Of a stretch of 64,000 nt of DNA, positions 5,945-19,272 are shown in pieces. The stretch spans positions 1-64,000 of the forward strand of contig QKYL01000010.1 of the NCBI GenBank assembly GCA_003255745.1, written 5' to 3'. Each line of letters begins with the position of its first letter. Within the stretch, counting starts at the first letter, position 1. The translations under genes were made by a program, and so were the position numbers. The notes under the pieces were generated by a model. The model was not told the origin of the DNA and ran no database searches. It saw only the letters and a list, made by a program, of their open reading frames with translations. Origin of the DNA: Paracoccus saliphilus (GTDB lineage Bacteria > Pseudomonadota > Alphaproteobacteria > Rhodobacterales > Rhodobacteraceae).

Positions 5945-6436
5945 TCCTTGGAAAACGTGGTTTGCGCAACAGCAGGCTACCTTGACAGGTTCGGGGCTGC
6001 GCTTCCTTGTGAACGCTACGCCTGATCACCACGCGATTGGCGCCAAGGATCGGCAGGCGCGGGGATTGTTCGCCCCTTCTGGTCGTCGCTCCAAGACGTT
6101 GCTTGCTCCCGGTCGAATGCCGTCGTGACACCAGACCAAGCGGCAAAGTCTTATGCCTTGCGGAAGTTTTCGGGTGGCGGAGCCAGAACCGCCACGGCCA
6201 TGGCAATCAGCAAGCCGCCCGTCGTGGTCCAGCTTGCCAATCTCGCGGCCCCAGAAATGGGCGCCGCCACAAGCATTCGTTGCAACCACGCAAGAAGGCA
6301 GCTGGCTGAAAAACTCCAGCAGCTGAGTGCCCCGCAACTTCTTGCGCAACGCGGTCCGTCCTGTGCTGTCGGCTCCATGCACCTGCAACACATTCTTCGC
6401 CAGGTCGAGCCCGACCGAGATGATCTTTAACACAAC
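5945..6436 (-). mobile_element. decayed, internally deleted IS110-family transposase
   Basis: The N-terminal part is intact to about residue 80. It reads IISVGLDLAKNVLQVHGAD with the catalytic Asp of the DEDD domain, then LRKKLRGTQLLEFFSQLP and CGGAHFWGREIGKL. The frame then jumps to sequence from the C-terminal domain: PPPENFRKA, DFAAWSG, and in another frame GLVSRRHSTGSKQRLGATTR and LPILGANRVV. The central coding region is missing and at least two frameshifts are present. Resemblance fades near 5945, about 40 nt from the end of the IS256 relic. Confidence 0.8.
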
Positions 6437-6487
6437 CGTTCCCCATTGTGGATCGTTGCAGACCCACCGGCGCACACCAAGGCCGTC

Positions 6488-6501
6488 GGGGGGGGGGGGG
6501 G
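6488..6501. repeat. run of 14 G
   Basis: An uninterrupted G tract lies between the IS110 relic and the terminator of the TerC-like gene. It is outside any gene I can support. Such tracts are slippage-prone, and they are also frequent sequencing or assembly errors. Confidence 0.9.
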
Positions 6502-6653
6502 CGGTCACATCAGCACAGTCGACACAGGTCCCAAGGTGCCGCGCGTTGGCGGTGGGTGGTCAAGGTCGCCATACAGCCTCTGCACGGCCACAGAATCAAT
6601 TCTGAACCCGCAACGGCGGAAACGCATGCAGTGAAATGGCGGGAAAAGAAAGG

Positions 6654-8308: not shown

Positions 8309-9556
8309 TCAGCGTCCGGCGGCGATGGCCAGCCCGTCGGTCACGGCCGTGAAGACATCCTTGAAGGAATGGCCTGCGGCCGGAAACCGCGCCTTCATCG
8401 TGCCTGAAACCATCGACATCAGGCTGGAGCCGCCGACATAGACGACCTGGCGCACGTCCCCTGCATCAATGCCCGCAAGGCGCAGCGTCTCGTCGGCACC
8501 CTCGGCCAGCGCCGCGGCATGGCGGGCCAGGCTGTCAGTCAGCGCCTCGGGGGGCAAGGGGGCGTAAAGGCCGCGCTCGACCTGGTCCAGCAGGATGCGG
8601 GGCTGCGCCTCGCCTGCGTTGGCGGCGATCTTGCCTCGCTCGACCGCGAAGGCAAGGTCGTGGCCCAGTTCGTCCTCCAGCACGCGGGCCAGCCGTGACA
8701 GCCTGTCGGGCTGCTGGGCCAGGCGCAGCATCTCGGCCACCATCCGGCGGTTCTGGGGCGTATAGACGAAGGGGATCTTCTCCCAGGTGGCCAGGTCATT
8801 GTAGATGGCGTTCGGGATGGGCGATGTTCCGGGCCCCATCGCCTTGCGCAGCAGGCCGCCCTTGCCCAGCAGCGGCATCACCCGATCGATGTTGATCGCG
8901 CGGTCGAAATCGGTGCCGCCGATGCGCACCCCGTGATTGGCCAGGATCGTGATGCCGCCACCGTCCGACCGGAACAGCGAGAAGTCCGACGTGCCGCCCC
9001 CCACGTCCACGATCAGTCCGATGGTGCCCGGCTGATCCAGCGCGCCGGCCGCGATCGCCGCGGCCTGGGGCTCGGGCAGGAAATCGACCTCCAGGAACCC
9101 GGCCTCCAGATAGCAGCGGCGCAGATCCTCCTCGGCCAGCGGTTCGCGCGGATCGCCTGTGCCGTGAAAGACGACCGGCCGGCCCGACAGGACACGGTCG
9201 AAGGTCAGGCCGGTCTGTGCCTCGGCCCGGATCTTGATCTGGTTCAGGAAGCGCGCTATGATCTCGACGAAGGTCACGCTCCGGTTCAGGATCTGGCGCT
9301 TTTCGTGCATCAGGCCGGTGCCCAAAACCCGCTTCAGCGCGCGCATGAACCGGCCCTCGACCCCGTCCAGCAGCGCCTGGTTGGCAGGATCGCCAATCAG
9401 GGTGCGCCGGGTGTCGTAGTCGAAAAAGAAGGTCGTGGGCATCGTCGTCTGGCCCGGCGCCAGCTCGATCAGGCGCGGCCTGCCGTCGCTGAGATAACCC
9501 GCCGCGGAATTCGAGGTGCCAAAGTCGATGCCCAAGCTGCGGCCCTGCGGTGCCAT
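8309..9556 (-). CDS. yegD: YegD-type Hsp70-family protein
   Basis: This 415-aa protein is an actin/Hsp70-fold ATPase lacking the usual substrate-binding domain. Phosphate 1 is LGIDFGTSNSAAG (about residue 8), phosphate 2 is IVDVGGGTSDFSL (about 190), and the adenosine motif is VVYVGGSSLM near the C-terminus. The length matches YegD rather than DnaK (about 640 aa). The best start is 9556: AGGAGA lies 6 nt ahead of it, whereas an upstream in-frame ATG at 9562 directly abuts that site and one at 9580 lacks one. It is probably a cytoplasmic chaperone-like protein; clients are unknown. Confidence 0.85.
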   Translation of the reverse strand: MAPQGRSLGIDFGTSNSAAGYLSDGRPRLIELAPGQTTMPTTFFFDYDTRRTLIGDPANQALLDGVEGRFMRALKRVLGTGLMHEKRQILNRSVTFVEIIARFLNQIKIRAEAQTGLTFDRVLSGRPVVFHGTGDPREPLAEEDLRRCYLEAGFLEVDFLPEPQAAAIAAGALDQPGTIGLIVDVGGGTSDFSLFRSDGGGITILANHGVRIGGTDFDRAINIDRVMPLLGKGGLLRKAMGPGTSPIPNAIYNDLATWEKIPFVYTPQNRRMVAEMLRLAQQPDRLSRLARVLEDELGHDLAFAVERGKIAANAGEAQPRILLDQVERGLYAPLPPEALTDSLARHAAALAEGADETLRLAGIDAGDVRQVVYVGGSSLMSMVSGTMKARFPAAGHSFKDVFTAVTDGLAIAAGR

Positions 9557-9635
9557 GCCCATTCTCCTGGTTCGGAACAAGGCTGGCGGGGATAGGCAGG
9601 CATCCCCCGGCTGTCAAGCAAATCGCCCCCGCCCT

Positions 9636-10205
9636 TCAGCCGGGGGGCAGGTCCATCGTGCCCAAGGCGGTCCGGAAGGCCAGGCGACCCTTGCACCTTG
9701 AAAGATAGCCTGTCAGCGCCGGGCAGGCGTCAAACGAGGTCACCTGCGCCGCCGCCCAGAGCGAATAGCCGATCTGGCAATCCGCGCCCGAAAATTCGCT
9801 GAGCAGCCATTCCGATCCGTCCAGCCAGTCGTTTAGCAGGTTCAGGCCATGGGCCAGACGGTCCGATGCCCCCGGTTCGGCCCGCCGCGCGACCTGTTGC
9901 AAAAGGGTTTCAGAGTAATGCAGCCAGTCCAGCCAGCCAATCCGCCCCGAGGCGCCGGGCGCGCGCCACAGCTGCGGCGCGCGGGTTTCGCACAGCCATT
10001 CGGTCATGGCCCCGGTTTCGTGCATGGTGACCTTGCCATCCCGCAGCGCGGGCGGGCGCGGGGGATGCAGCGCCGCCTGCAGCGTATCTGGCGCATCAAG
10101 GCGCTTCAGCGCGTAATCGCAGCCGATCTCCTCCAGCAGCCACAGGATGCGGGCGGAACGCGAATGGGGCACATGCCACAGGGTCAGGCCGGTCGTCATC
10201 GGCAC
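9636..10205 (-). CDS. glutathione S-transferase-like protein
   Basis: This 189-aa protein has an N-terminal thioredoxin-fold segment (LTLWHVPHSRSARILWLLEE) typical of GSTs, with Ser/Arg in the active-site loop. A helical C-terminal domain follows (NLLNDWLDGSEWLLSEFSGA and ADCQIGYSLWAAA). At 189 aa it is slightly shorter than most GSTs (200-220), mainly because the link after the first strands is compressed (ALHPPRPPALRDGKVTMHET). The Pro before beta-3 and the ET pair that contact glutathione are recognisable. It is cytoplasmic; the substrate cannot be read from the sequence. It lies between the YegD gene and the last chemotaxis gene on the same strand, with gaps too large for coupling. Confidence 0.8.
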   Translation of the reverse strand: MPMTTGLTLWHVPHSRSARILWLLEEIGCDYALKRLDAPDTLQAALHPPRPPALRDGKVTMHETGAMTEWLCETRAPQLWRAPGASGRIGWLDWLHYSETLLQQVARRAEPGASDRLAHGLNLLNDWLDGSEWLLSEFSGADCQIGYSLWAAAQVTSFDACPALTGYLSRCKGRLAFRTALGTMDLPPG

Positions 10206-10252: not shown

Positions 10253-11977
10253 TCAGAACAGGATGTCGTCCAGATCCTCGGCATCATGCGGGGCCTGCCC
10301 TTCCTCAGGTTGTGCCGCGCCTTCCGATGAGCCGGTCAGGATGGCATCGTGGATGACCCGTTCCTGCTGCATGGAGTAGCGCATGCGCATGCGCGCCATC
10401 GCCTCGGCGGCGGGTGTTCCCGGCGCAAGCGGCAGGACCACGGCGGGCAGGGTGGCCCTCCGATGCGACAGCGCCAGTGCGAACCCTGCCAGACGGTCGC
10501 GAACGCCCAGATATCCCGACAGCAGGCGGACCCCTTCGCCCAACCGCACGGGCAAAACCCGTCCTGTGGCATCAAAGCCCGCCGCCGTGTCCAAGATCGC
10601 CTTCTCCCCCTGCTCGACAAGGGCTGCCAGGGCCTCGGCCGTCCGGCCCATGGACCGGGCCTGGCTTTCCAACTGATCGACGCTGGCGATGCCGACCCGG
10701 TTGGTGCAGGTGCGCATCGTGTCCAGTGAACCCTGCAGCCGGCTGACGATATGGTCGCTCTGGTCGGTCAGGGCGCGCAGCCAGCTTGCCAGTTCCCGCA
10801 GCGGCCGCCCGTCATTGCCCAGCTTGGCGCAGATCAGCACCGCATTCAGCCCCGACAGCCGCACGTGATGGGCGATCTGGCGCAGCGTTCGTTCATGCGC
10901 CAGGATCGTGTCCAGGCGATTGCCGACTTCGGTCGCCTGTCGGCGCATGGCGGCCAGTTCGTCACCCATCCGGCCCAGGCTCAGGGCCAGCCGGCTGTGC
11001 CGTTCGTGGGGGGGCACGCCGCGCTGCTGCGATGCGCCCGACAGATAGAACTCGCGGGCCGTGCCGATGGCCTCGGTGGCGCCGGACTGGACGTCGCGCA
11101 GCGCATCGACCGAACCCGACACTTCGGCCACCATGTCCGCGACAGCGCCGTCGATCAGTCCCTCGGCCAGGCTCAGGGCGGCATGTTCCACGTCGACGTC
11201 GCGCTCGGCCTTGCCCTCGATCACGACGGCGCGCGCACGTTCCAGCCGCTGCCGGGTGGAATCGCCGATCTGCATGGCGACGATCAAGCGCGACACCTCG
11301 GAAAACACCTGGCCCATCCGGGATGCCAGGTCGGCGCTGGCGCGGGCGGTCTGGTCCTGGTCCTTGAGAACGCCGGCGCCGGTCCGGGCCAGGCGCACGA
11401 TCAGGGGCATCACATCCATTGACACCGTTTCGCGCAGCTGGGTCGCGACCTTGCCCATCGTTTCGATGTCCTCGGTCACGCCGTCCATGGCGTCCTTGAC
11501 CTGCCGCAGCACGTCCTCGGCCTCGCTGGCCATTTCCGCCAGACGCTGGATGAAAGCCGTGACCTGCGGCTGCCGCGGGGTCAGCACGTTCCCCTGGATG
11601 CGGGCGTTGATGGCCACGTTCGACATGGTGCGCACGACGCGGTCCAGCTCCGACACCTCAACCCGGATGCCGTGAACCGCGCTGCGCAACCCCTGGCTGT
11701 CGTCCAAAAAGGATGCGAAATCCCGTTGAAGCCGGGCAATGTCGCCCTCGACCTGCGCGGTCAGTTCTTCCAGCGCGGCGCGGCTGTCGGGACCCAGGCT
11801 CTGCTCCAGGCGGGCGAAATGATCCTGCAGCGTCCGCAGGCTGTCCACGGCCACCTCCAGATGGCCTCCGGCGGCAAGGAACGTGTCCTCGGTGACGCGC
11901 AGCACCTCGTCCAGCGGCGCAAGGGCAGGGGCCGACCAGGCCGGATCAGGCCGCAGGGCCGTCGGTGTCTGGATCAT
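10253..11977 (-). CDS. soluble MCP-like helical protein ending the che operon
   Basis: This 574-aa protein has no signal peptide or membrane helix and is predicted to be almost all alpha-helical. Its start overlaps the cheB stop by ATGA, so it belongs to the chemotaxis operon. Residues 377-407 (LNAVLICAKLG to TDQS) align without gaps with the signalling tip of the receptor in this same operon ([11 protein letters not shown] to AERS), with 11 of 31 positions identical. The receptor's conserved Glu is absent. A weaker copy begins at about residue 119 (SNVAINARIQGN). Between them, residues 239-243 read DSTRQ inside a helix, reminiscent of the D-x-T-x-Q of CheZ phosphatases (QDLTGQ). The C-terminus is acidic (EDLDDILF). 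Possible roles are a soluble receptor-like scaffold or a CheY phosphatase. The operon has no CheC, CheX, CheD or CheZ. Function is inferred only. Confidence 0.75.
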   Translation of the reverse strand: MIQTPTALRPDPAWSAPALAPLDEVLRVTEDTFLAAGGHLEVAVDSLRTLQDHFARLEQSLGPDSRAALEELTAQVEGDIARLQRDFASFLDDSQGLRSAVHGIRVEVSELDRVVRTMSNVAINARIQGNVLTPRQPQVTAFIQRLAEMASEAEDVLRQVKDAMDGVTEDIETMGKVATQLRETVSMDVMPLIVRLARTGAGVLKDQDQTARASADLASRMGQVFSEVSRLIVAMQIGDSTRQRLERARAVVIEGKAERDVDVEHAALSLAEGLIDGAVADMVAEVSGSVDALRDVQSGATEAIGTAREFYLSGASQQRGVPPHERHSRLALSLGRMGDELAAMRRQATEVGNRLDTILAHERTLRQIAHHVRLSGLNAVLICAKLGNDGRPLRELASWLRALTDQSDHIVSRLQGSLDTMRTCTNRVGIASVDQLESQARSMGRTAEALAALVEQGEKAILDTAAGFDATGRVLPVRLGEGVRLLSGYLGVRDRLAGFALALSHRRATLPAVVLPLAPGTPAAEAMARMRMRYSMQQERVIHDAILTGSSEGAAQPEEGQAPHDAEDLDDILF

Positions 11978-13083
11978 GCGGTCTCTCCCGTTCGGTGGCG
12001 GCGGGCGAAATTCATGATCGCGGCGGCCATCTTGTCCAAAGGAAGGCTGAGGCCCACGGCCCCCGCCTGTACGGCTTCGCGCGGCATGCCATAGACCGCG
12101 CTTGTGGCTTCGTCCTGCGCAACGGTGGGCGATCCGGCCCGGCGCATCTCGGCCAGGCAGCGGGCGCCGTCGTCGCCCATGCCGGTCAGGATGATGCCCA
12201 TGGCATTCGCGCCCGCCGCCGTCGCCGCGGAGCGGAACAGAACATCGACCGAGGGTCTGTGCCGGCTGACGTAAGGCCCCCCCTGCACCGAGACGCGATA
12301 GGCGCCCGGACCGCGACGCAGCAGCAGGTGATGGTCCCCGCGCGCCACGACGACGCGGCCGGCACCCAGCTGCGCCCCGTCGGTCGCCTCGGCCACCGAA
12401 ACGGCGCAGGCCGCGTTCAGCCGCCGCGCAAAGGCGCCCGTGAAGCCCTCGGGCATGTGCTGGACGATGGCGATGGCGGGCGCGTCCGCGGGCAGCATCG
12501 TCAGGACCCGCAGCAACGCATCCGTGCCCCCGGTCGATGCACCGATGCAGACGATCGGTTCGGTCCGGGGGACAGGCCGCAGGAACGTGGGCGGTGGCAG
12601 GATCTCGTCCGCGGTCAGCTTGGGGCCCGGGGCATGGAACTGCGCCATCATCGCGGCCGAAGCCCCCCGCGTGCGCGCGGCCGCCCGCAGCGCGTCGCAG
12701 ATGCGGATGGCGCCTTCGGCGCGCTGCTGGGCATTGCCCTGGGCGGGCTTCAGGATCGCCTCGACCGCGCCCGCATCCAGGGCCGCGATGCTCTGGTCGG
12801 AACCGCGCTCGGTGGCGCCCGAACAGACAACGACCGGAATGGGATGCTGGGCCATGATCTTGCGCAGGAAGGTCAGCCCGTCCATGCCGGGCATTTCCAG
12901 GTCCAGCAGGATGACATCGGGCAGGCCCGACCGCATCGCCTTGGCCGCGGCCATGGCATCGGCCGCAACGGCCATCACCGTCAGGGCCGGATCGCTTTCG
13001 ACGATATGGCGCAGCATCGCCCGCGCCGATGGGGAATCATCAACGATCAGGACCTTGATCGCTTGTCCTGCCAAGGATGCCAT
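11974..13083 (-). CDS. cheB: CheB chemotaxis methylesterase/deamidase
   Basis: This 369-aa protein has an N-terminal receiver domain (IKVLIVDDSPSARAMLRHIV; phospho-acceptor Asp in VILLDLEMPGMDGL, about residue 60). A CheB catalytic domain follows with the Ser of CIGASTGGTDALL, the His of IVQHMPEGFT and the Asp of GIILTGMGDDGARC. It removes methyl groups from receptor glutamates, and phosphorylation by CheA activates it. The start at 13083 (MASLAGQAIKV) gives the normal length; the frame is open further upstream only because it overlaps cheR. It lies 4 nt after cheR and overlaps the next gene by 4 nt. Confidence 0.95.
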   Translation of the reverse strand: MASLAGQAIKVLIVDDSPSARAMLRHIVESDPALTVMAVAADAMAAAKAMRSGLPDVILLDLEMPGMDGLTFLRKIMAQHPIPVVVCSGATERGSDQSIAALDAGAVEAILKPAQGNAQQRAEGAIRICDALRAAARTRGASAAMMAQFHAPGPKLTADEILPPPTFLRPVPRTEPIVCIGASTGGTDALLRVLTMLPADAPAIAIVQHMPEGFTGAFARRLNAACAVSVAEATDGAQLGAGRVVVARGDHHLLLRRGPGAYRVSVQGGPYVSRHRPSVDVLFRSAATAAGANAMGIILTGMGDDGARCLAEMRRAGSPTVAQDEATSAVYGMPREAVQAGAVGLSLPLDKMAAAIMNFARRHRTGETA

Positions 13084-13087
13084 GGCG

Positions 13088-13927
13088 CTACTCCTTCCGG
13101 AAGATCGTGGGGCGTATCTGGCGCAGCCCCGGGTGACGGACGGCCATGGACTCTGAATGGCCGACCAGCAGATAGCCGCCCGGAGCCACATGCCTGACCA
13201 TCTTGGCGATCACCCTGTCCTTGTCCTCGGCCGAGAAATAGATCAGCACGTTGCGCAGCAGGATCACGTCGACATCCCGGTCCACCGGATAGGCGTCATC
13301 CATCAGGTTCAGGTGGCGAAAGCGGACCCGCCGCCGCAGTTCGGGCACCACGCGTGCCTTGCCGGACAGCGCGGGATCGGCCGAGGTCATGAAATAGCGC
13401 CGCCGAAGCGGGGGCGGGACGGTGTTCAGCTGGTCGATGCCATAAACCGCCGCCGTGGCCCGTTCCAGCACCTGGCTGGAAATGTCGGTGCCTAGGATTG
13501 CATAGTCGAAACGCCGTCCGGCCCGCTGCGCCTCGGCCAGGACCATGGCGGCGGTGAAGGCCTCGGCTCCCTCCGAGCTTGCCGCGCTCCACAGCTTCAG
13601 GCGCGGGGCCGAGCCGGTGCCGCGGCGGCCCAGGGTCGCGGGCAGGACCTCGTCCACCAGGAAATCGAAATGCGACGGTTCGCGGAAAAAGCTGGTGGTG
13701 TTCGTGGTGATCAGATCGATCACGATCCGCAGCTCGTCGGTCATGCCGCGATCTTCCAGCAGCATGCGCAGATAGGCCTCGGTATCAGGCAGGCCAAAGG
13801 CCAGCACCCGGCGTCGCAGGCGCTGGTCGATCATCTGCACCTTGTTGGCAGGCAGAATGATGCCCGTCAGCGACCCGATCAGGTCGCGGAAGCGGTCCCC
13901 ATAGGACAGCGGTGCAAGCAAGGTCAT
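13088..13927 (-). CDS. cheR: CheR chemotaxis protein methyltransferase
   Basis: This protein has 279 residues after the Met at 13927 (MTLLAPLSYGDRFR). It has the small N-terminal helical CheR domain (about 1-75, with LRRRVLAFGLPDTEAYL) and the SAM-binding methyltransferase domain. Signature motifs are TTNTTSFFREPSHFD, LWSAASSEGAEAFTAAMVL (the SAM-binding loop, where the family has CSTGEEPYS) and VILLRNVLIYFS. It methylates receptor glutamates. The upstream in-frame extension to 14014 overlaps cheW and is unlikely. The ribosome-binding site is weak and it starts 10 nt after cheW, which suggests coupling. Confidence 0.93.
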   Translation of the reverse strand: MTLLAPLSYGDRFRDLIGSLTGIILPANKVQMIDQRLRRRVLAFGLPDTEAYLRMLLEDRGMTDELRIVIDLITTNTTSFFREPSHFDFLVDEVLPATLGRRGTGSAPRLKLWSAASSEGAEAFTAAMVLAEAQRAGRRFDYAILGTDISSQVLERATAAVYGIDQLNTVPPPLRRRYFMTSADPALSGKARVVPELRRRVRFRHLNLMDDAYPVDRDVDVILLRNVLIYFSAEDKDRVIAKMVRHVAPGGYLLVGHSESMAVRHPGLRQIRPTIFRKE

Positions 13928-13937
13928 CGCAGCACCG

Positions 13938-14423
13938 TCATTCTGCCGCGTCCATCCGCGGCTGCACCGGGACGACCGGCACGGCCGTGAAAAGCTTGTC
14001 CAGGTTGAGGACACTGACCACCTCGCCCTTGCGGCGGCCGATCCCGGCCACCGCGCCGCCGGTCCATTGCAGCAGGCCCGCTTCGGTCATGGGCCGCAAT
14101 TCGGGTTCGTCGAGGCAGGTCACCTCGATCACCCGGTCGGTCCGGATGCCGATGATGGCGCGGTCCTGACCGCTGACCATCCAGACCACCAGGATGCGGG
14201 TCTGCGGCGTGTCGGGCGAGGGCGGCAGCCCCAGCAGGTTGCGCAGGTCAACCACCGGGACATTCTCTCCCCGCAGGTCAATGATGCCCAGCAGATGCGC
14301 GGGTGCGTTCGGCATGGGCGCGATGGGCCGAAGATCCAGGATCTCTTGCACGCGCGACACGAGGATCGCGTAAAGCGATCCGTCCGCCTCGAAGGTGACG
14401 ACGTCCGAACTTTCCTGCGTCAT
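13938..14423 (-). CDS. cheW: CheW adaptor (second copy in the operon)
   Basis: This 161-aa protein consists of one CheW domain. It begins with DVVTFEADGSLYAILVSRVQ, then LLGIIDLRGENVPVVDLRNL (the conserved NxRG-type turn, here DLRGENVPVVDLR). The last strands read EVVSVLNLDKLF. It couples receptors to CheA at the membrane array. It lies 14 nt after the receptor gene and 10 nt before cheR. It differs clearly from the other CheW at 16132-16611, so two adaptor types may coexist in the array. Confidence 0.93.
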   Translation of the reverse strand: MTQESSDVVTFEADGSLYAILVSRVQEILDLRPIAPMPNAPAHLLGIIDLRGENVPVVDLRNLLGLPPSPDTPQTRILVVWMVSGQDRAIIGIRTDRVIEVTCLDEPELRPMTEAGLLQWTGGAVAGIGRRKGEVVSVLNLDKLFTAVPVVPVQPRMDAAE

Positions 14424-14437
14424 GTCTTTCCCCTGCC

Positions 14438-16135
14438 TCAGGCCGCGTTGCTGCGCTTGAACCGGGTATCGAGGTCATCATCCTCGGTACCCAGATCGAA
14501 GTCGAAGCCACCGCCGGTCGCGGGCGCGGCTGCCTTGCGGGGGCGGGCCGGGGTGACCGCGGCAGACATGCCCGGACGCGGCGCCGTGGCGGCCGGTGCG
14601 GTGTGATTGCTGTCCGAGACGTTGAAGAAACCGATCGCGGCGGCAAGCTGGTCGGACTGGCTGGCCAGCTCCGTCGCGCTGGCCGACAGCTGTTCGGATG
14701 CGGCGGTGTTTTCCTGCGTGACCTTGTCCAGCTGCTGGATCGACATGCTGATCTGGGTGCTGCCGGTCGCCAGTTCGCGCGAGGCGACCGAGATCTCGGT
14801 CACCAGGGCCGAGGTTTTCTCGATGTCCGGAACCAGCCCCTGCAGCATCTCGCCCGCGCTTGCGGCGGTTCGCACCGTTGCCGCCGACAGGGACGAGATT
14901 TCGGCCGCCGCCGTCTGGCTGCGTTCGGCCAGCTTGCGCACCTCGGCTGCCACGACGGCGAAGCCGCGGCCATGCTCTCCGGCCCGCGCGGCCTCAACCG
15001 CTGCGTTCAGGGCCAGAAGGTCGGTCTGGCGCGCGATTTCCTGCACGATCATGATCCGGTCGGCGATGGTCTGCATCGCCTGCACGGCCTCGGCCACGGC
15101 CTTGCCGCTTTGGCGCGCATCGGCTGCGGATTTCATCGCGATCTGTTCGGTCGCGGTGGCATTGTCGGCGCTTTGCTTGATGTTGGCGGTCATCTGCTCG
15201 ACCGCCGCCGAAACCTCCTCGGTCGCCGAGGCCTGCTGGCTGGCGCCCTCCGACAGCTGTTCGGACGTGGCGGCCATTTCCGTGCTGCCCGAAGCGACGT
15301 TGCGCACGGCGTTGGACACGTTGCCCACGACCTCGCGCAGCTTGACGATCATGTCGTTCAGTCCGGCCAGCAGGTCGCCAACCTCGTCATTGCGCTTTTT
15401 GGTATCTGCCGAGCGCAGCTCGCCATCTGCCACGCGCCGCGTCTGCGCCACGGCCTGCGCCAGACCGCGCGAGATGGAGATGACAACAAGCGTTGCGCCC
15501 AAACCGCCAACAAGCAGCGAGATGACCAGCAGCACGATCAGTTCACGCTGCGCAAATGCGTAGCTTTCCGCGACCGTGGCGATATCGCTGTTGATCTCGG
15601 CCTCAAATGTACTGCGCGCTTCCAGAAGGGCGGCGATGGCCTGGTCGGTCAGAGCTGCAGCCTCGGTATGGTAGAGGGTGTTTGCACTATCCCCCTGGCC
15701 GGCCAGTTCCGACCGCACGATCCGCTGGTTCATCTCCCAAAGCTGTTCGCCGGCACTGCGATAGTTTTCCAGCGCCGCGATGATCACGGGCTTGTCACCC
15801 ACCTTCGCCAAGACCTCGGCGTACAGGGTATCGATCTGGCCTTTCGCGGTATCCATCTCGCTGCGCCGGGTAGAGATGTGCTGGTCGGGTGCATTGGGCA
15901 GGCCGATCAGGATTTCGGACACAATGGAACGAAGCCGCAGTTCCTTTCTGATGAGGTCCTCGTTCACCAGCAAGCCGGCGACTTCGACCTGCACCGTTTC
16001 GTTGTACTGGTCGTTCGACTTCTTGAGTTCCTTGAGGGCGATCAGCATGGATACACCTGCCAAGGCAAAGACAAAGGCGAAGATGGCCACAAGCTTGGCC
16101 TTGATCGTGAAACGCATCAGGGGGTTCCTTTTCAT
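14438..16135 (-). CDS. mcp: methyl-accepting chemotaxis protein
   Basis: This 565-aa transmembrane receptor has TM1 at about 11-33 ([20 protein letters not shown]) and a periplasmic four-helix-bundle-like sensor domain at about 34-195. TM2 lies at about 200-222 ([20 protein letters not shown]), followed by HAMP and a cytoplasmic signalling domain. The tip reads [20 protein letters not shown], continuing with the usual RGFAVVA block. A Pro/Ala-rich linker and an acidic tail ([10 protein letters not shown]) end the protein. The start overlaps the upstream cheW by ATGA. No CheR-docking pentapeptide of the NWETF type is seen at the end. The ligand is unknown. Confidence 0.95.
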
Positions 16136-16611
16136 GGGGTGTCCGCAGCCCTGCTGGCCTGGGCGGCAAAGATGTTGGTCAGGTCCGGGATCAGCACAAA
16201 GCCGTCAGGACTGTTATAAAGCCCGCTGATGTGATCGGCGGGCCAGGCGGTGGCAGAGGAAGGCGCAGGTTCGATCTGCGAGGCCTTGATGGTGGTCACC
16301 TCGTGAACCGCATCCGCCATGATCGCGACAGTGGCCAGATCGCCTTCCAGATCGACCTCCAGCACCATGATCCGACGCCGGTCGTCCTGTCCTTCGTCGG
16401 GGATGCCAAGCGCGTGGCGCAGGTTGGCCAGCGGCACGACCGAACCACGGACATTGACGACGCCCGGAACAAAGGGACCGGCACGGGGGACCCGCGTGAC
16501 GGGCAGGGGGTCCAGGATTTCGCGCAGGGCGCAGGCGGGGATCGCCAGCTTCTGCGCGCCGACCGTCAGGGTGATCACGGTCAGGTCGTCGCGGGGGGTG
16601 ATTGCGTTCAT
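16132..16611 (-). CDS. cheW: CheW adaptor (first copy in the operon)
   Basis: This 159-aa CheW-domain protein starts at 16611 ([20 protein letters not shown]). The conserved core reads [20 protein letters not shown], then [18 protein letters not shown] with the diagnostic NVRG turn. The end ([11 protein letters not shown]) matches the last CheW strands. Both flanks overlap neighbours by ATGA (cheA before, mcp after). The longer open frame upstream is the shadow of cheA. Confidence 0.94.
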
Positions 16612-18599
16612 GCTGCCACCTCGCGCGCGCGGGCGGACGGGTCGGGCAGTGTCTGCCCAAGCGCCAGAAGATGCATCACGTCCAGGATCAGTGCGACCGT
16701 GCCGTCGCCCAGGATCGTGGCGCCCGACACGGCGCGCACATTCGCATGCAGTTTCGACATCTGCTTGATCACCGTCTGGTTGGTGCCGATGATCCGGTCG
16801 ACCACGACACCGACGCGGGTGTCGCCAAGCGTGACGATGACGACATTCTGGTCCGGTTCCGGCTGGCCGTCGCAGGCGAACAGCTGGCGCAGGCGCAGAA
16901 AGGGAACAAAGCGGCCCCGGATCTCCAGAAAATCGCCGGCGCGGTTCGGAACCAGTTTCGATGCGGGCAGTTCCACGATCTCCTGCACCGCAGCCATCGG
17001 CAGGATGTAGCGTTCGCCCGCGACCTCGATCAGCAGGCCGTCGATGATGGCCAGGGTCAGCGGCAGGCGCAGCGTGACGGTTGTTCCTTCGCCAAGGCGC
17101 GATTCGATGCTGATGGCGCCGCGCAACCCGTCGATCGTCCGCCGCACCACATCCATGCCCACGCCGCGTCCCGAAATCTCGGTCACCGCGGCGGCGGTCG
17201 AAAATCCCGGCTCGAAGATCAGGGCAAAGCATTGCGCCTCGGTCAGGACCGCATCGGGCGCGATCAGCCCGGCGGCGACCGCCTTGGTGCGCAGCTTGTC
17301 CGGGTTCATGCCGCGGCCGTCGTCGCGGATGCGGATCAGCACCTCGGCGCCGGCATGTTCCGCCGACAGCTCTACCCGGCCCTCCGCGGGCTTTCCGGCG
17401 GCCAGGCGCTCTTCGGGCGTCTCCAGCCCGTGGTCCAGCGAGTTGCGCAGGATGTGCACGATCGGATCGGCCAGCTTCTCGATCACCGTCTTGTCCAGTT
17501 CCGTGTCCTCGCCCAGCACGTTGAAGCTGATCGGCTTGCCAAGCGTGTCCGACAGCCCCAGGACCAGCCTGCGAAAGCGTGCAACCAGGCTGCGCATCGG
17601 CACCATCCGCATCGTCATGGTGCTGTCGCGCAGGCGGGCGGCCAGGCGGGTGATCTGTTCGGCCGTGGCCATAAGGGCGGCGTCGCGGCTTTCGCGGGCC
17701 AGTTCGGTCAGGCGCGCTTCCAGGATGACCAGTTCGCCCACGCTGTCCATCAGCGCATCCAGCCGCTCTGCCGGCACGCGGATCGTGGCGCCGCCGCCCT
17801 GCGGGGCAGCCGCCCCCGCCGCAGATTCGACCCCGGCGCGCGGGGCGGCAGCAGGGGGCGCGGCGGTCGTTTCCCGGACAATCGTCGCCGCGGGTTCGAG
17901 GGCCAGGGCCTCGGCCGCCGCCGTGGGCGGGGGATCGCCGCGCCTCAGGCTCCAGTCGGCGTCGGCAAAGATGAAGACCTCCTCGATCTGCGCGTCGGTC
18001 ACGGCGGCCGGCAGGTCAAGATGCCAAACCAGGTGACAGGCGCCGGGCACCAGGCTGTCCAGGGGCGGCACGCCGCTTGTGTCGCAGGTTATGCCGGTGG
18101 CGCCCAGGGCGCGGAATTCGTCCAGGATGATGTCGGGCCGCGCGCCCATGGCAAAGGCGTCGCCCCGCAGGCCAAAGGTCAGCCGCGAAACGTCCTGAAC
18201 GGCGGCCGGGGCCGGAAAGGCCACCGGGACGCCCGCCGAGATCTGCGCCTCCAGCGCCTCCAGGATGGCTTGCCGCCGCCCCTCGGGGTCTGGCACGCCC
18301 TCGACCAGGCCGGGGATCTGGTCGCGCGCCTCAAGGGACAGGTGGATGATGTCCGAGGTGACGACGGCGGCACCCGACCTGATCTTGTCGAACAGGGTTT
18401 CAAAGCTGTGGATGAAGCCTGCCAGTTCGGCAAAGCCGAACATCGCGCCGCTGCCCTTCACGGTGTGCAGGTCGCGGAACACCTGGTTCACCAGCGCCAT
18501 GTCCTGCGGCGCCGCCTCCAGGTCCAGCAGCCCGCGCTCCAGGCTTTCCAGAAGGTCCCTCAGTTCCTCGCGGAAGATCGCGGCCATGTCGTCCATCAT
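16608..18599 (-). CDS. cheA: CheA chemotaxis histidine kinase
   Basis: This 663-aa cytoplasmic kinase has an Hpt (P1) domain at about 1-105 with phospho-acceptor His45 in DLHTVKGSGAMFGF. A P2-like region and an Ala/Pro linker follow to about 285. The dimerisation helices contain LMDSVGELVILEARL. The HATPase domain contains ILRNSLDHGLE (N box), IRDDGRGM (G1) and SGRGVGMDVVRRTI (G2). The C-terminal CheW-like P5 domain contains EIRGRFVPFLRL. It phosphorylates CheY and CheB. Its start overlaps the cheY stop (TGATG) and its end overlaps cheW (ATGA). Confidence 0.96.
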   Translation of the reverse strand: MMDDMAAIFREELRDLLESLERGLLDLEAAPQDMALVNQVFRDLHTVKGSGAMFGFAELAGFIHSFETLFDKIRSGAAVVTSDIIHLSLEARDQIPGLVEGVPDPEGRRQAILEALEAQISAGVPVAFPAPAAVQDVSRLTFGLRGDAFAMGARPDIILDEFRALGATGITCDTSGVPPLDSLVPGACHLVWHLDLPAAVTDAQIEEVFIFADADWSLRRGDPPPTAAAEALALEPAATIVRETTAAPPAAAPRAGVESAAGAAAPQGGGATIRVPAERLDALMDSVGELVILEARLTELARESRDAALMATAEQITRLAARLRDSTMTMRMVPMRSLVARFRRLVLGLSDTLGKPISFNVLGEDTELDKTVIEKLADPIVHILRNSLDHGLETPEERLAAGKPAEGRVELSAEHAGAEVLIRIRDDGRGMNPDKLRTKAVAAGLIAPDAVLTEAQCFALIFEPGFSTAAAVTEISGRGVGMDVVRRTIDGLRGAISIESRLGEGTTVTLRLPLTLAIIDGLLIEVAGERYILPMAAVQEIVELPASKLVPNRAGDFLEIRGRFVPFLRLRQLFACDGQPEPDQNVVIVTLGDTRVGVVVDRIIGTNQTVIKQMSKLHANVRAVSGATILGDGTVALILDVMHLLALGQTLPDPSARAREVAA

Positions 18600-18964
18600 C
18601 AGCCCAGGACCTTGCGGATGACGGCCAGCAGCTTGTCCTGACTGAAGGGCTTGACCATCCAGCCTAGGGCTCCCGCCTCGCGCGCCTGCTGCTTCAGCGC
18701 ATCCTCGGAATCGGTGGACAGCACGATGATGGGAATGCCCGCGCCCGACGGATGCTTGCGCAGCTCGCGGATGAAGCCCAACCCGTCCAGGTTGGGCATG
18801 TTCTGGTCGGTGATGATCGCGTCAAAGCGTTCGGATGTGGCCTTGCCCAGACCGTCGCGCCCGTCCACGGCCTCGACGACGCGATAGCCCGCATCGGTCA
18901 GGGTCATGGCAATCATGCGCCGGATCGAAGGGGAATCGTCCACCGTCAGCACTGTCTTGGTCAT
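18599..18964 (-). CDS. cheY: CheY-type response regulator
   Basis: This 121-aa protein is a single receiver domain. It has the acidic pair in LTVDDSPSIRR (about residue 9), phospho-acceptor Asp in DAIITDQNMPNLDGL (about 53), Thr/Ser in IIVLSTDSED and the Lys of GWMVKPFSQ (about 105). It carries the phosphoryl group from CheA to an output. No flagellar genes are in the window, so the target is not evident. The start overlaps the STAS gene by ATGA. Confidence 0.95.
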   Translation of the reverse strand: MTKTVLTVDDSPSIRRMIAMTLTDAGYRVVEAVDGRDGLGKATSERFDAIITDQNMPNLDGLGFIRELRKHPSGAGIPIIVLSTDSEDALKQQAREAGALGWMVKPFSQDKLLAVIRKVLG

Positions 18965-19272
18965 CTCGCGGCACCTTTTGCGTGTGTCTGTTCATTCCGG
19001 GAAACGGCGAAGGCGCGGTCCAGCCCCAGCCTGTCGGCCAGGGCTGCCGCGGCGCCCGACGCATCCATGCTGACCTGCAGCTCCTGCCCAGTTCGGGCAG
19101 CCATATGCTGCGCCGAGACAAGAAGTTGCAGGATGGCCGCGTCGGCCCCGATCAGTGCGGTGGCATCAATGCCGACCGCGCCCCGTGCCAGCGCGTCCTG
19201 CAGGGTCCGGGACAGCGCGTCGGCCTCTGCCAGGGTCATCTCTCCGCTCAGCGGCACCATCGTGGATGTCAT
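18961..19272 (-). CDS. STAS-domain protein, first gene of the che operon
   Basis: This 103-aa protein fits a STAS/anti-anti-sigma fold: LSGEMTLAEADALSRTLQ, then GAVGIDATALIGADAAILQL and a C-terminal helix-strand unit (AALADRLGLDRAFAV). The usual phosphorylatable Ser in D-S-x-G is not clearly present; the equivalent place reads DATALIGAD, so switching by serine phosphorylation is doubtful. It is the first gene of the operon and overlaps cheY by ATGA, which ties it to the pathway. It may be a scaffold or a partner switch. Confidence 0.8.
   Translation of the reverse strand: MTSTMVPLSGEMTLAEADALSRTLQDALARGAVGIDATALIGADAAILQLLVSAQHMAARTGQELQVSMDASGAAAALADRLGLDRAFAVSRNEQTHAKGAAR

Follow-up and report, generated by a model that had tools for sequence, protein, structure and literature searches.

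The che operon and its terminal gene

The window, by which is meant the whole stretch of 64,000 nucleotides analysed, contains on its minus strand a chemotaxis operon with the order STAS-CheY-CheA-CheW-MCP-CheW-CheR-CheB-X. The first gene encodes a STAS-domain protein (18961..19272), assigned from the STAS annotation in a Methylosinus relative. It is followed by cheY (18599..18964), encoding a single receiver domain that is the presumed substrate of X, cheA (16608..18599, with a PF02895 match at contig positions 17610-17789), cheW1 (16132..16611), the gene for the membrane receptor or MCP (14438..16135), cheW2 (13938..14423) and cheR (13088..13927), all assigned from open reading frames and homology. 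The cheB gene (11974..13083) was identified with phmmer and has its likely start at 13083. The last gene, X (10253..11977), encodes a protein (P0001) which, based on the open reading frame, family alignments and an AF2 model, is a predicted CheZ-type phosphatase of phosphorylated CheY (CheY-P) on a fused receptor-hairpin scaffold.

The start codon of X is an ATG in a 4-bp ATGA overlap with cheB, so translation of the two genes is probably coupled. The GC content by codon position (0.74/0.47/0.84) was that of a typical coding sequence for the source. Since hydropathy over 19 residues reached a maximum of only 1.3, X is without a membrane segment. The 574-residue reading frame without a membrane segment that the original prediction placed at 10253-11977 was borne out, and it is on the minus strand. 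Downstream of X on the same strand are an Hsp70-like open reading frame (8309-9580) and a glutathione-S-transferase-like one (9636-10205), neither of which adjoined X in the relatives examined. The first part of a further minus-strand reading frame (6026-6508) resembles by eye the start of an IS110-type transposase and is probably a remnant. A second che cluster is located beside flagellar genes on the same contig at approximately 73.6-84 kb (73589-84000), outside the window, and includes a large CheA-like reading frame (73589-76717) and a short one near 83.5 kb.

Of 149 sampled genomes of the taxonomic family, 15 contained homologues of X, as did 14 of 195 genomes of an order sample, the own genome being included; the weakest matches in the order sample were fragments or ordinary MCPs. 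Rhodobacterales with X include Rhodobacter, Tabrizicola, Gemmobacter, Marivivens, Paradonghicola and Seohaeicola among others, and homologues also occurred in three further families of this class. P0001 as the lone query gave no match in the contig search; the X-family alignment (A5) gave 25 loci. In the class-wide profile search the full-length alignment returned mostly ordinary MCPs through the second hairpin described below, and the N-terminal half alone was therefore taken as the query. A second set of 24 full-length X proteins was obtained, 21 of them from loci outside the first set.

Divergence within the family is large, with a median pairwise identity of 19% among 24 members, in which E30, L40, Q236, G238, D239, Q243, R244, N378, Y534, E539, R540 and the start methionine are invariant. 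Searches of P0001 and relatives against Pfam and NCBIfam returned weak coiled-coil noise and sub-threshold MCP matches alone; the best Pfam match, DUF1664, was set aside as a match of coiled-coil composition.

The gene set upstream of X is the same in the operons of relatives. Of 23 loci, 20 had X directly after cheB, and so did 24 of 24 loci of the second set (21 of them new); the three exceptions had X beside an MCP gene in a rearranged cluster (L022, L023) or divergent from cheY (L029). Although FliM (PF02154) escaped detection in several genomes with X, a reading of X operons as a mark of non-flagellate cells was dropped, since detection may fail in this family.

To our knowledge, such chemosensory operons have no recognised way to erase CheY-P. 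The original prediction had stated that CheZ, CheC, CheX and CheD are missing from the operon, and none was found in the whole of the own genome, where PF04509 and PF13690, the models used for the CheC/CheX/FliY phosphatases, gave no match, P0001 included. Genomes of the taxonomic family without X also lack CheZ and CheC, and the results consequently show a vacancy, not a correlation. With respect to the proposed survey of other CheY phosphatases, the known ones are absent from the own genome, but that absence is not specific to X.

Receptor-like hairpins and predicted fold

The AF2 model of X, built with 24 sequences, was all helical with a mean pLDDT of 86.4. It comprises a first hairpin (residues 63-234, 11276..11791, with helices 63-131 and 137-234), a motif helix (236-257), a second hairpin (residues 261-489, 10511..11197, with helices 261-317 and 323-489) and a disordered segment (552-568). 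The N-terminal half aligned with its C-terminal half by profile at E 2.8e-8 with the two tips in register, indicating that X consists of two receptor hairpins in tandem. The X family profile found MCP structures at 6e-16, in an alignment that pairs the LNA tips. PF00015 matched 8 of 21 relatives (best 3.4e-5), below the Pfam cut-off, and gave no match in P0001.

Both tips are decayed. The LNAxxE..AGE residues of MCP tips are represented in X by the conserved Asn, and the first Glu is lost in both. Tip 1 (residues 116-130, RTMSNVAINARIQGN, 11588..11632) has Asn124 in 18 of 24 homologues, and tip 2 (residues 374-404, LSGLNAVLICAKLGNDGRPLRELASWLRALT, 10766..10858) has an invariant Asn378. The ungapped match of residues 377-407 to the tip of the operon MCP noted earlier was reproduced at exactly 11 of 31 identical positions, with Ile in place of the LNAxxE glutamate; since 46 of 2000 shuffles of X also reached 11/31, this identity taken singly is weak evidence. 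The weaker tip-like stretch placed near residue 119 has only 3 of 31 identities to the same tip, yet its assignment held, as hairpins 1 and 2 align with their tips in register.

In comparisons with VIA-align, X superposed through residues 28-239 on 3g6b, a soluble chemoreceptor (Z 9.6, rmsd 2.5 over 210), and through residues 257-513 on Tsr (8c5v_I) with Z 10.5 and an rmsd of 5.0 over 253. Residues 83-440 matched a four-helix bundle designed as a single chain, at Z 18.5 and an rmsd of 2.2 over 195. Scores in this range are common among long helices and hence supportive only. TTYH channels, ClyA/Ahl pore proteins and axonemal coiled coils among the Foldseek and VIA matches were treated as long-helix look-alikes. 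The model and the VIA matches show receptor-type hairpins in one chain arranged as a four-helix bundle, and the modelled fold is consistent with a single-chain version of the receptor dimer. The structural check suggested earlier gave receptor-type hairpins (3g6b, Tsr); CheZ was not among the Foldseek or VIA matches, a result not counted as evidence against it. Overall, the alignments and structural matches confirm the receptor origin of X.

X shares long antiparallel helical hairpins and the LNA tip with the MCP signalling domain (PF00015; Tm14 2ch7, soluble 3g6b, Tsr), and differs in lacking a membrane segment, the tip Glu and a CheR-docking pentapeptide (0/24) and in having a DxxxQ motif and a CheZ-like tail. 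Natural soluble single-chain MCP signalling domains are described in PMC4692393 (citing Berleman and Bauer 2005) for Rhodospirillum centenum and a few other microbes, their function being reported there as unknown, and an engineered single-chain Tsr is described as working. Like these, X has two signalling hairpins fused in one soluble chain.

The CheZ-like motif, the C-terminal tail and the F2 family

The motif (residues 235-248, MQIGDSTRQRLERA, 11234..11275) includes D239 (11261-11263) and Q243 (11249-11251), both of which were invariant in 24 of 24 homologues and present in all 24 full-length proteins of the second set. The consensus LQxGDxxRQRxEHV is the most conserved spot of X across 24 divergent homologues. 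DSTRQ at residues 239-243, whose likeness to CheZ the original prediction drew on, is the sole D-x-[ST]-x-Q in X; weak evidence when taken singly, it gains its weight from the invariance of D239 and Q243 across the homologues. The catalytic pair of E. coli CheZ is D143/Q147, within the motif QDFQDLTGQVIKRM. Measured from the hydrophobic face of the motif helix, Asp and Gln lie at 173 and 147 degrees in X, at 165 and 155 in the F2 family described below, and at 176 and 144 in CheZ. This geometry predicts that D239 and Q243 form the same exposed pair as in CheZ, the exposure being judged from the amphipathicity of the helix. At the matching position of hairpin 2 there is no DxxxQ (R493/A497), and X would therefore have one site per bundle versus two in the CheZ dimer.

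Near the C-terminus a disordered linker (residues 552-568, 10274..10324, pLDDT below 50) leads to the tail AEDLDDILF (residues 566-574, 10256..10282), a predicted CheZ-like CheY-docking peptide with the conserved end DxLxDI[FL]F. In the AF2 model the tail forms a short helix (569-572) of low confidence. Among the 24 full-length proteins of the second set 22 end in F, and nearly all of the 24 have a DDLDDIFF-like tail. The acidic-hydrophobic sequence resembles the CheY-binding C-terminus of CheZ (QVDDLLDSLGF in E. coli) and would constitute a second CheZ-like feature, one absent from the original prediction. A reading of the tail as a CheR/CheB docking pentapeptide was ruled out, as it fits none of 24 X and none of 14 F2 proteins. 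Upstream of the linker, a Y-[ST]-M-x-x-E-R-x-x-H motif (residues 534-543, 10349..10378) is almost as conserved as the D/Q site, with Y, E and R in 24, M in 23 and H in 22 of 24 homologues. It is also found in some F2 proteins, and no counterpart was recognised.

The search with the N-terminal half of X also returned F2, a large family of soluble proteins of 350-540 residues (L091-L110; further operon-context loci L128-L141). F2 proteins have intact MCP tips, and those scanned matched PF00015 at E 1e-16 to 1e-30 with MCPsignal as the only Pfam match. They carry an FQDRTxQRLEHV motif and an acidic tail ending DDIELF; in the F2 alignment (A4) the tip residues, Q270, Q272, D273, Q277 and F366 are invariant. 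Most F2 genes belong to other che operons, in which they immediately follow cheB or immediately precede cheY-cheA-cheW-cheR. The F2 model (pLDDT 77), nearest to MCP structures, consists of one long hairpin, whose return helix bears the motif, and a tail that is disordered. In the model of one member (L095, 1288-2385, minus strand) a short beta hairpin (E86-89, E92-95) breaks the N-terminal helix. Profile alignment of X with F2 gave E 7.2e-15, and the N-terminal half of X matched F2 at 1.9e-15 (hhalign) through the motif; both X hairpins resemble F2. The tip Asn and the motif Asp are 115 residues apart in X hairpin 1 and in 14 of 14 F2 proteins; within the X family the distance is 111-119. X and F2 share the MCP hairpin, this motif spacing, the acidic F-ending tail and the che-operon site, whereas F2 has one hairpin, an intact tip and FQ before the Asp and X has two hairpins and IG.

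Comparison of F2 with CheZ placed Asp and Gln in register at E 4e-6, with a score of 50.5 where 120 shuffles reached at most 24. Direct comparison of X with CheZ was marginal (E 1.8e-4, D/Q in the same register); after gap trimming E was 0.019, a level also reached by the reversed profile and by one block shuffle in 60. Since this match is not clearly above shuffles, the link between X and CheZ rests mainly on F2. The Pfam CheZ model (PF04344) gave no match for P0001 at E <= 1, for members of the X-family alignment at 0.01 or for F2 at E <= 10. CheZ of three X-bearing genomes has the motif FQD[LI]TGQRxxKV and tails such as SQADIDALFG. F2 as a strict replacement of CheZ was ruled out, as CheZ is present in 16 of the 18 genomes of the F2 search.

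X and CheZ have in common a che linkage, long helical hairpins in which DxxxQ occupies a helix face predicted to be exposed, and a flexible linker followed by a C-terminal acidic-amphipathic peptide, for which CheY binding is predicted in X. They differ in length, X having 574 residues and CheZ about 210-280. X further departs from CheZ in its receptor-like tips, in combining two hairpins and a single motif in one chain, and in lacking both the FQ before the Asp and a Pfam CheZ match. The AXXFQ element beside the CheZ DxxxQ, reported to affect CheZ localisation (PMC7750401), is represented in X by LQxG, with IG for FQ, and F2 keeps the FQ without the A.

Proposed function of X

The reading of X that we consider probable, from features of the sequence, is that of a CheZ-type CheY-P phosphatase on a fused and decayed receptor scaffold, serving as the signal-termination enzyme of its operon. 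The two MCP-like helical hairpins in one chain would fold into a four-helix bundle, and the motif helix after hairpin 1 would present D239 and Q243 on its putatively exposed face. By analogy with D143 and Q147 of E. coli CheZ, the predicted roles are contact with the CheY active site for D239 and orientation of the attacking water for Q243, and the tail on its flexible linker is predicted to capture CheY-P. The phosphatase is the best reading because of the invariant D/Q pair with CheZ geometry, the tail on a linker, the near-constant position in che operons and the absence of a known rival phosphatase. Within this class, CheT of Sinorhizobium meliloti provides a precedent for DxxxQ phosphatases of a non-classical type: encoded in a che operon, it has DxxxQ, accelerates the dephosphorylation of one CheY and is CheZ-like by AlphaFold (review PMC12654446). 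X is likewise an alphaproteobacterial che-operon protein with DxxxQ, and by description CheT is set apart from it in that no receptor hairpins are reported for CheT.

The original prediction had offered two roles for a protein derived from a soluble receptor, a new class of CheY phosphatase or a component of the array. Its phosphatase half is supported by the D/Q pair, the tail and the che linkage, and the receptor origin stands, whereas the array half is less supported for X since the tips are without the conserved receptor residues. Their decay speaks against X still docking in CheA/CheW arrays in the manner of receptors. A purely structural role, in which X as a soluble single-chain receptor joins or blocks such arrays and DxxxQ is structural only, would agree with the clear receptor ancestry and with the natural soluble single-chain signalling domains noted in PMC4692393; it is nonetheless improbable, the decay of the tips and the conservation of D, Q and the tail being the opposite of what it predicts. 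Somewhat less improbable, and still unlikely, is that X is a CheY-P-binding output or sink in which the tail captures CheY-P, the rod passes the signal to another target and D/Q serve in binding. The tail resembles CheY-binding peptides in general, beyond that of CheZ, and nothing corresponding to the nearly invariant Y-[ST]-M-x-x-E-R-x-x-H motif is recognised in CheZ, as such a role would allow; pure binding does not, however, predict a D/Q pair at i,i+4 in the register and on the helix face of CheZ. Dephosphorylation of CheB-P or another receiver in place of CheY-P appears the least probable. It draws on the ATGA overlap and on cheB being usually the direct neighbour of X, but CheZ-type tails bind the CheY surface, and X is apart from cheB in L022, L023 and L029, facing cheY in the last.

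Whereas X is the probable CheY-P phosphatase of its own operon, F2 with its intact tips is a better candidate than X for a phosphatase tethered in arrays, an activity predicted from its motif and tail. We tentatively propose, as a possibility that may well prove wrong, that X and F2 are widespread alphaproteobacterial receptor-derived CheY phosphatases, in which F2 would reside in arrays via its intact tips, its site 115 residues down the rod being switched by the conformational signal that controls CheA, and X would be a fusion of two such units with one site lost and the tips decayed. Should X and F2 prove to be phosphatases, a receptor rod would have been reused as an enzyme scaffold, which would point to phosphatases anchored in the arrays. 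The missing enzyme would then have been hidden by looking like receptors or like nothing known, and annotated accordingly. An F2-like protein on two plasmid records is annotated 'methyl-accepting chemotaxis protein', and in the one named X relative checked, on a plasmid of Methylosinus sp. C49, X is at the end of the same operon and annotated 'hypothetical protein'.
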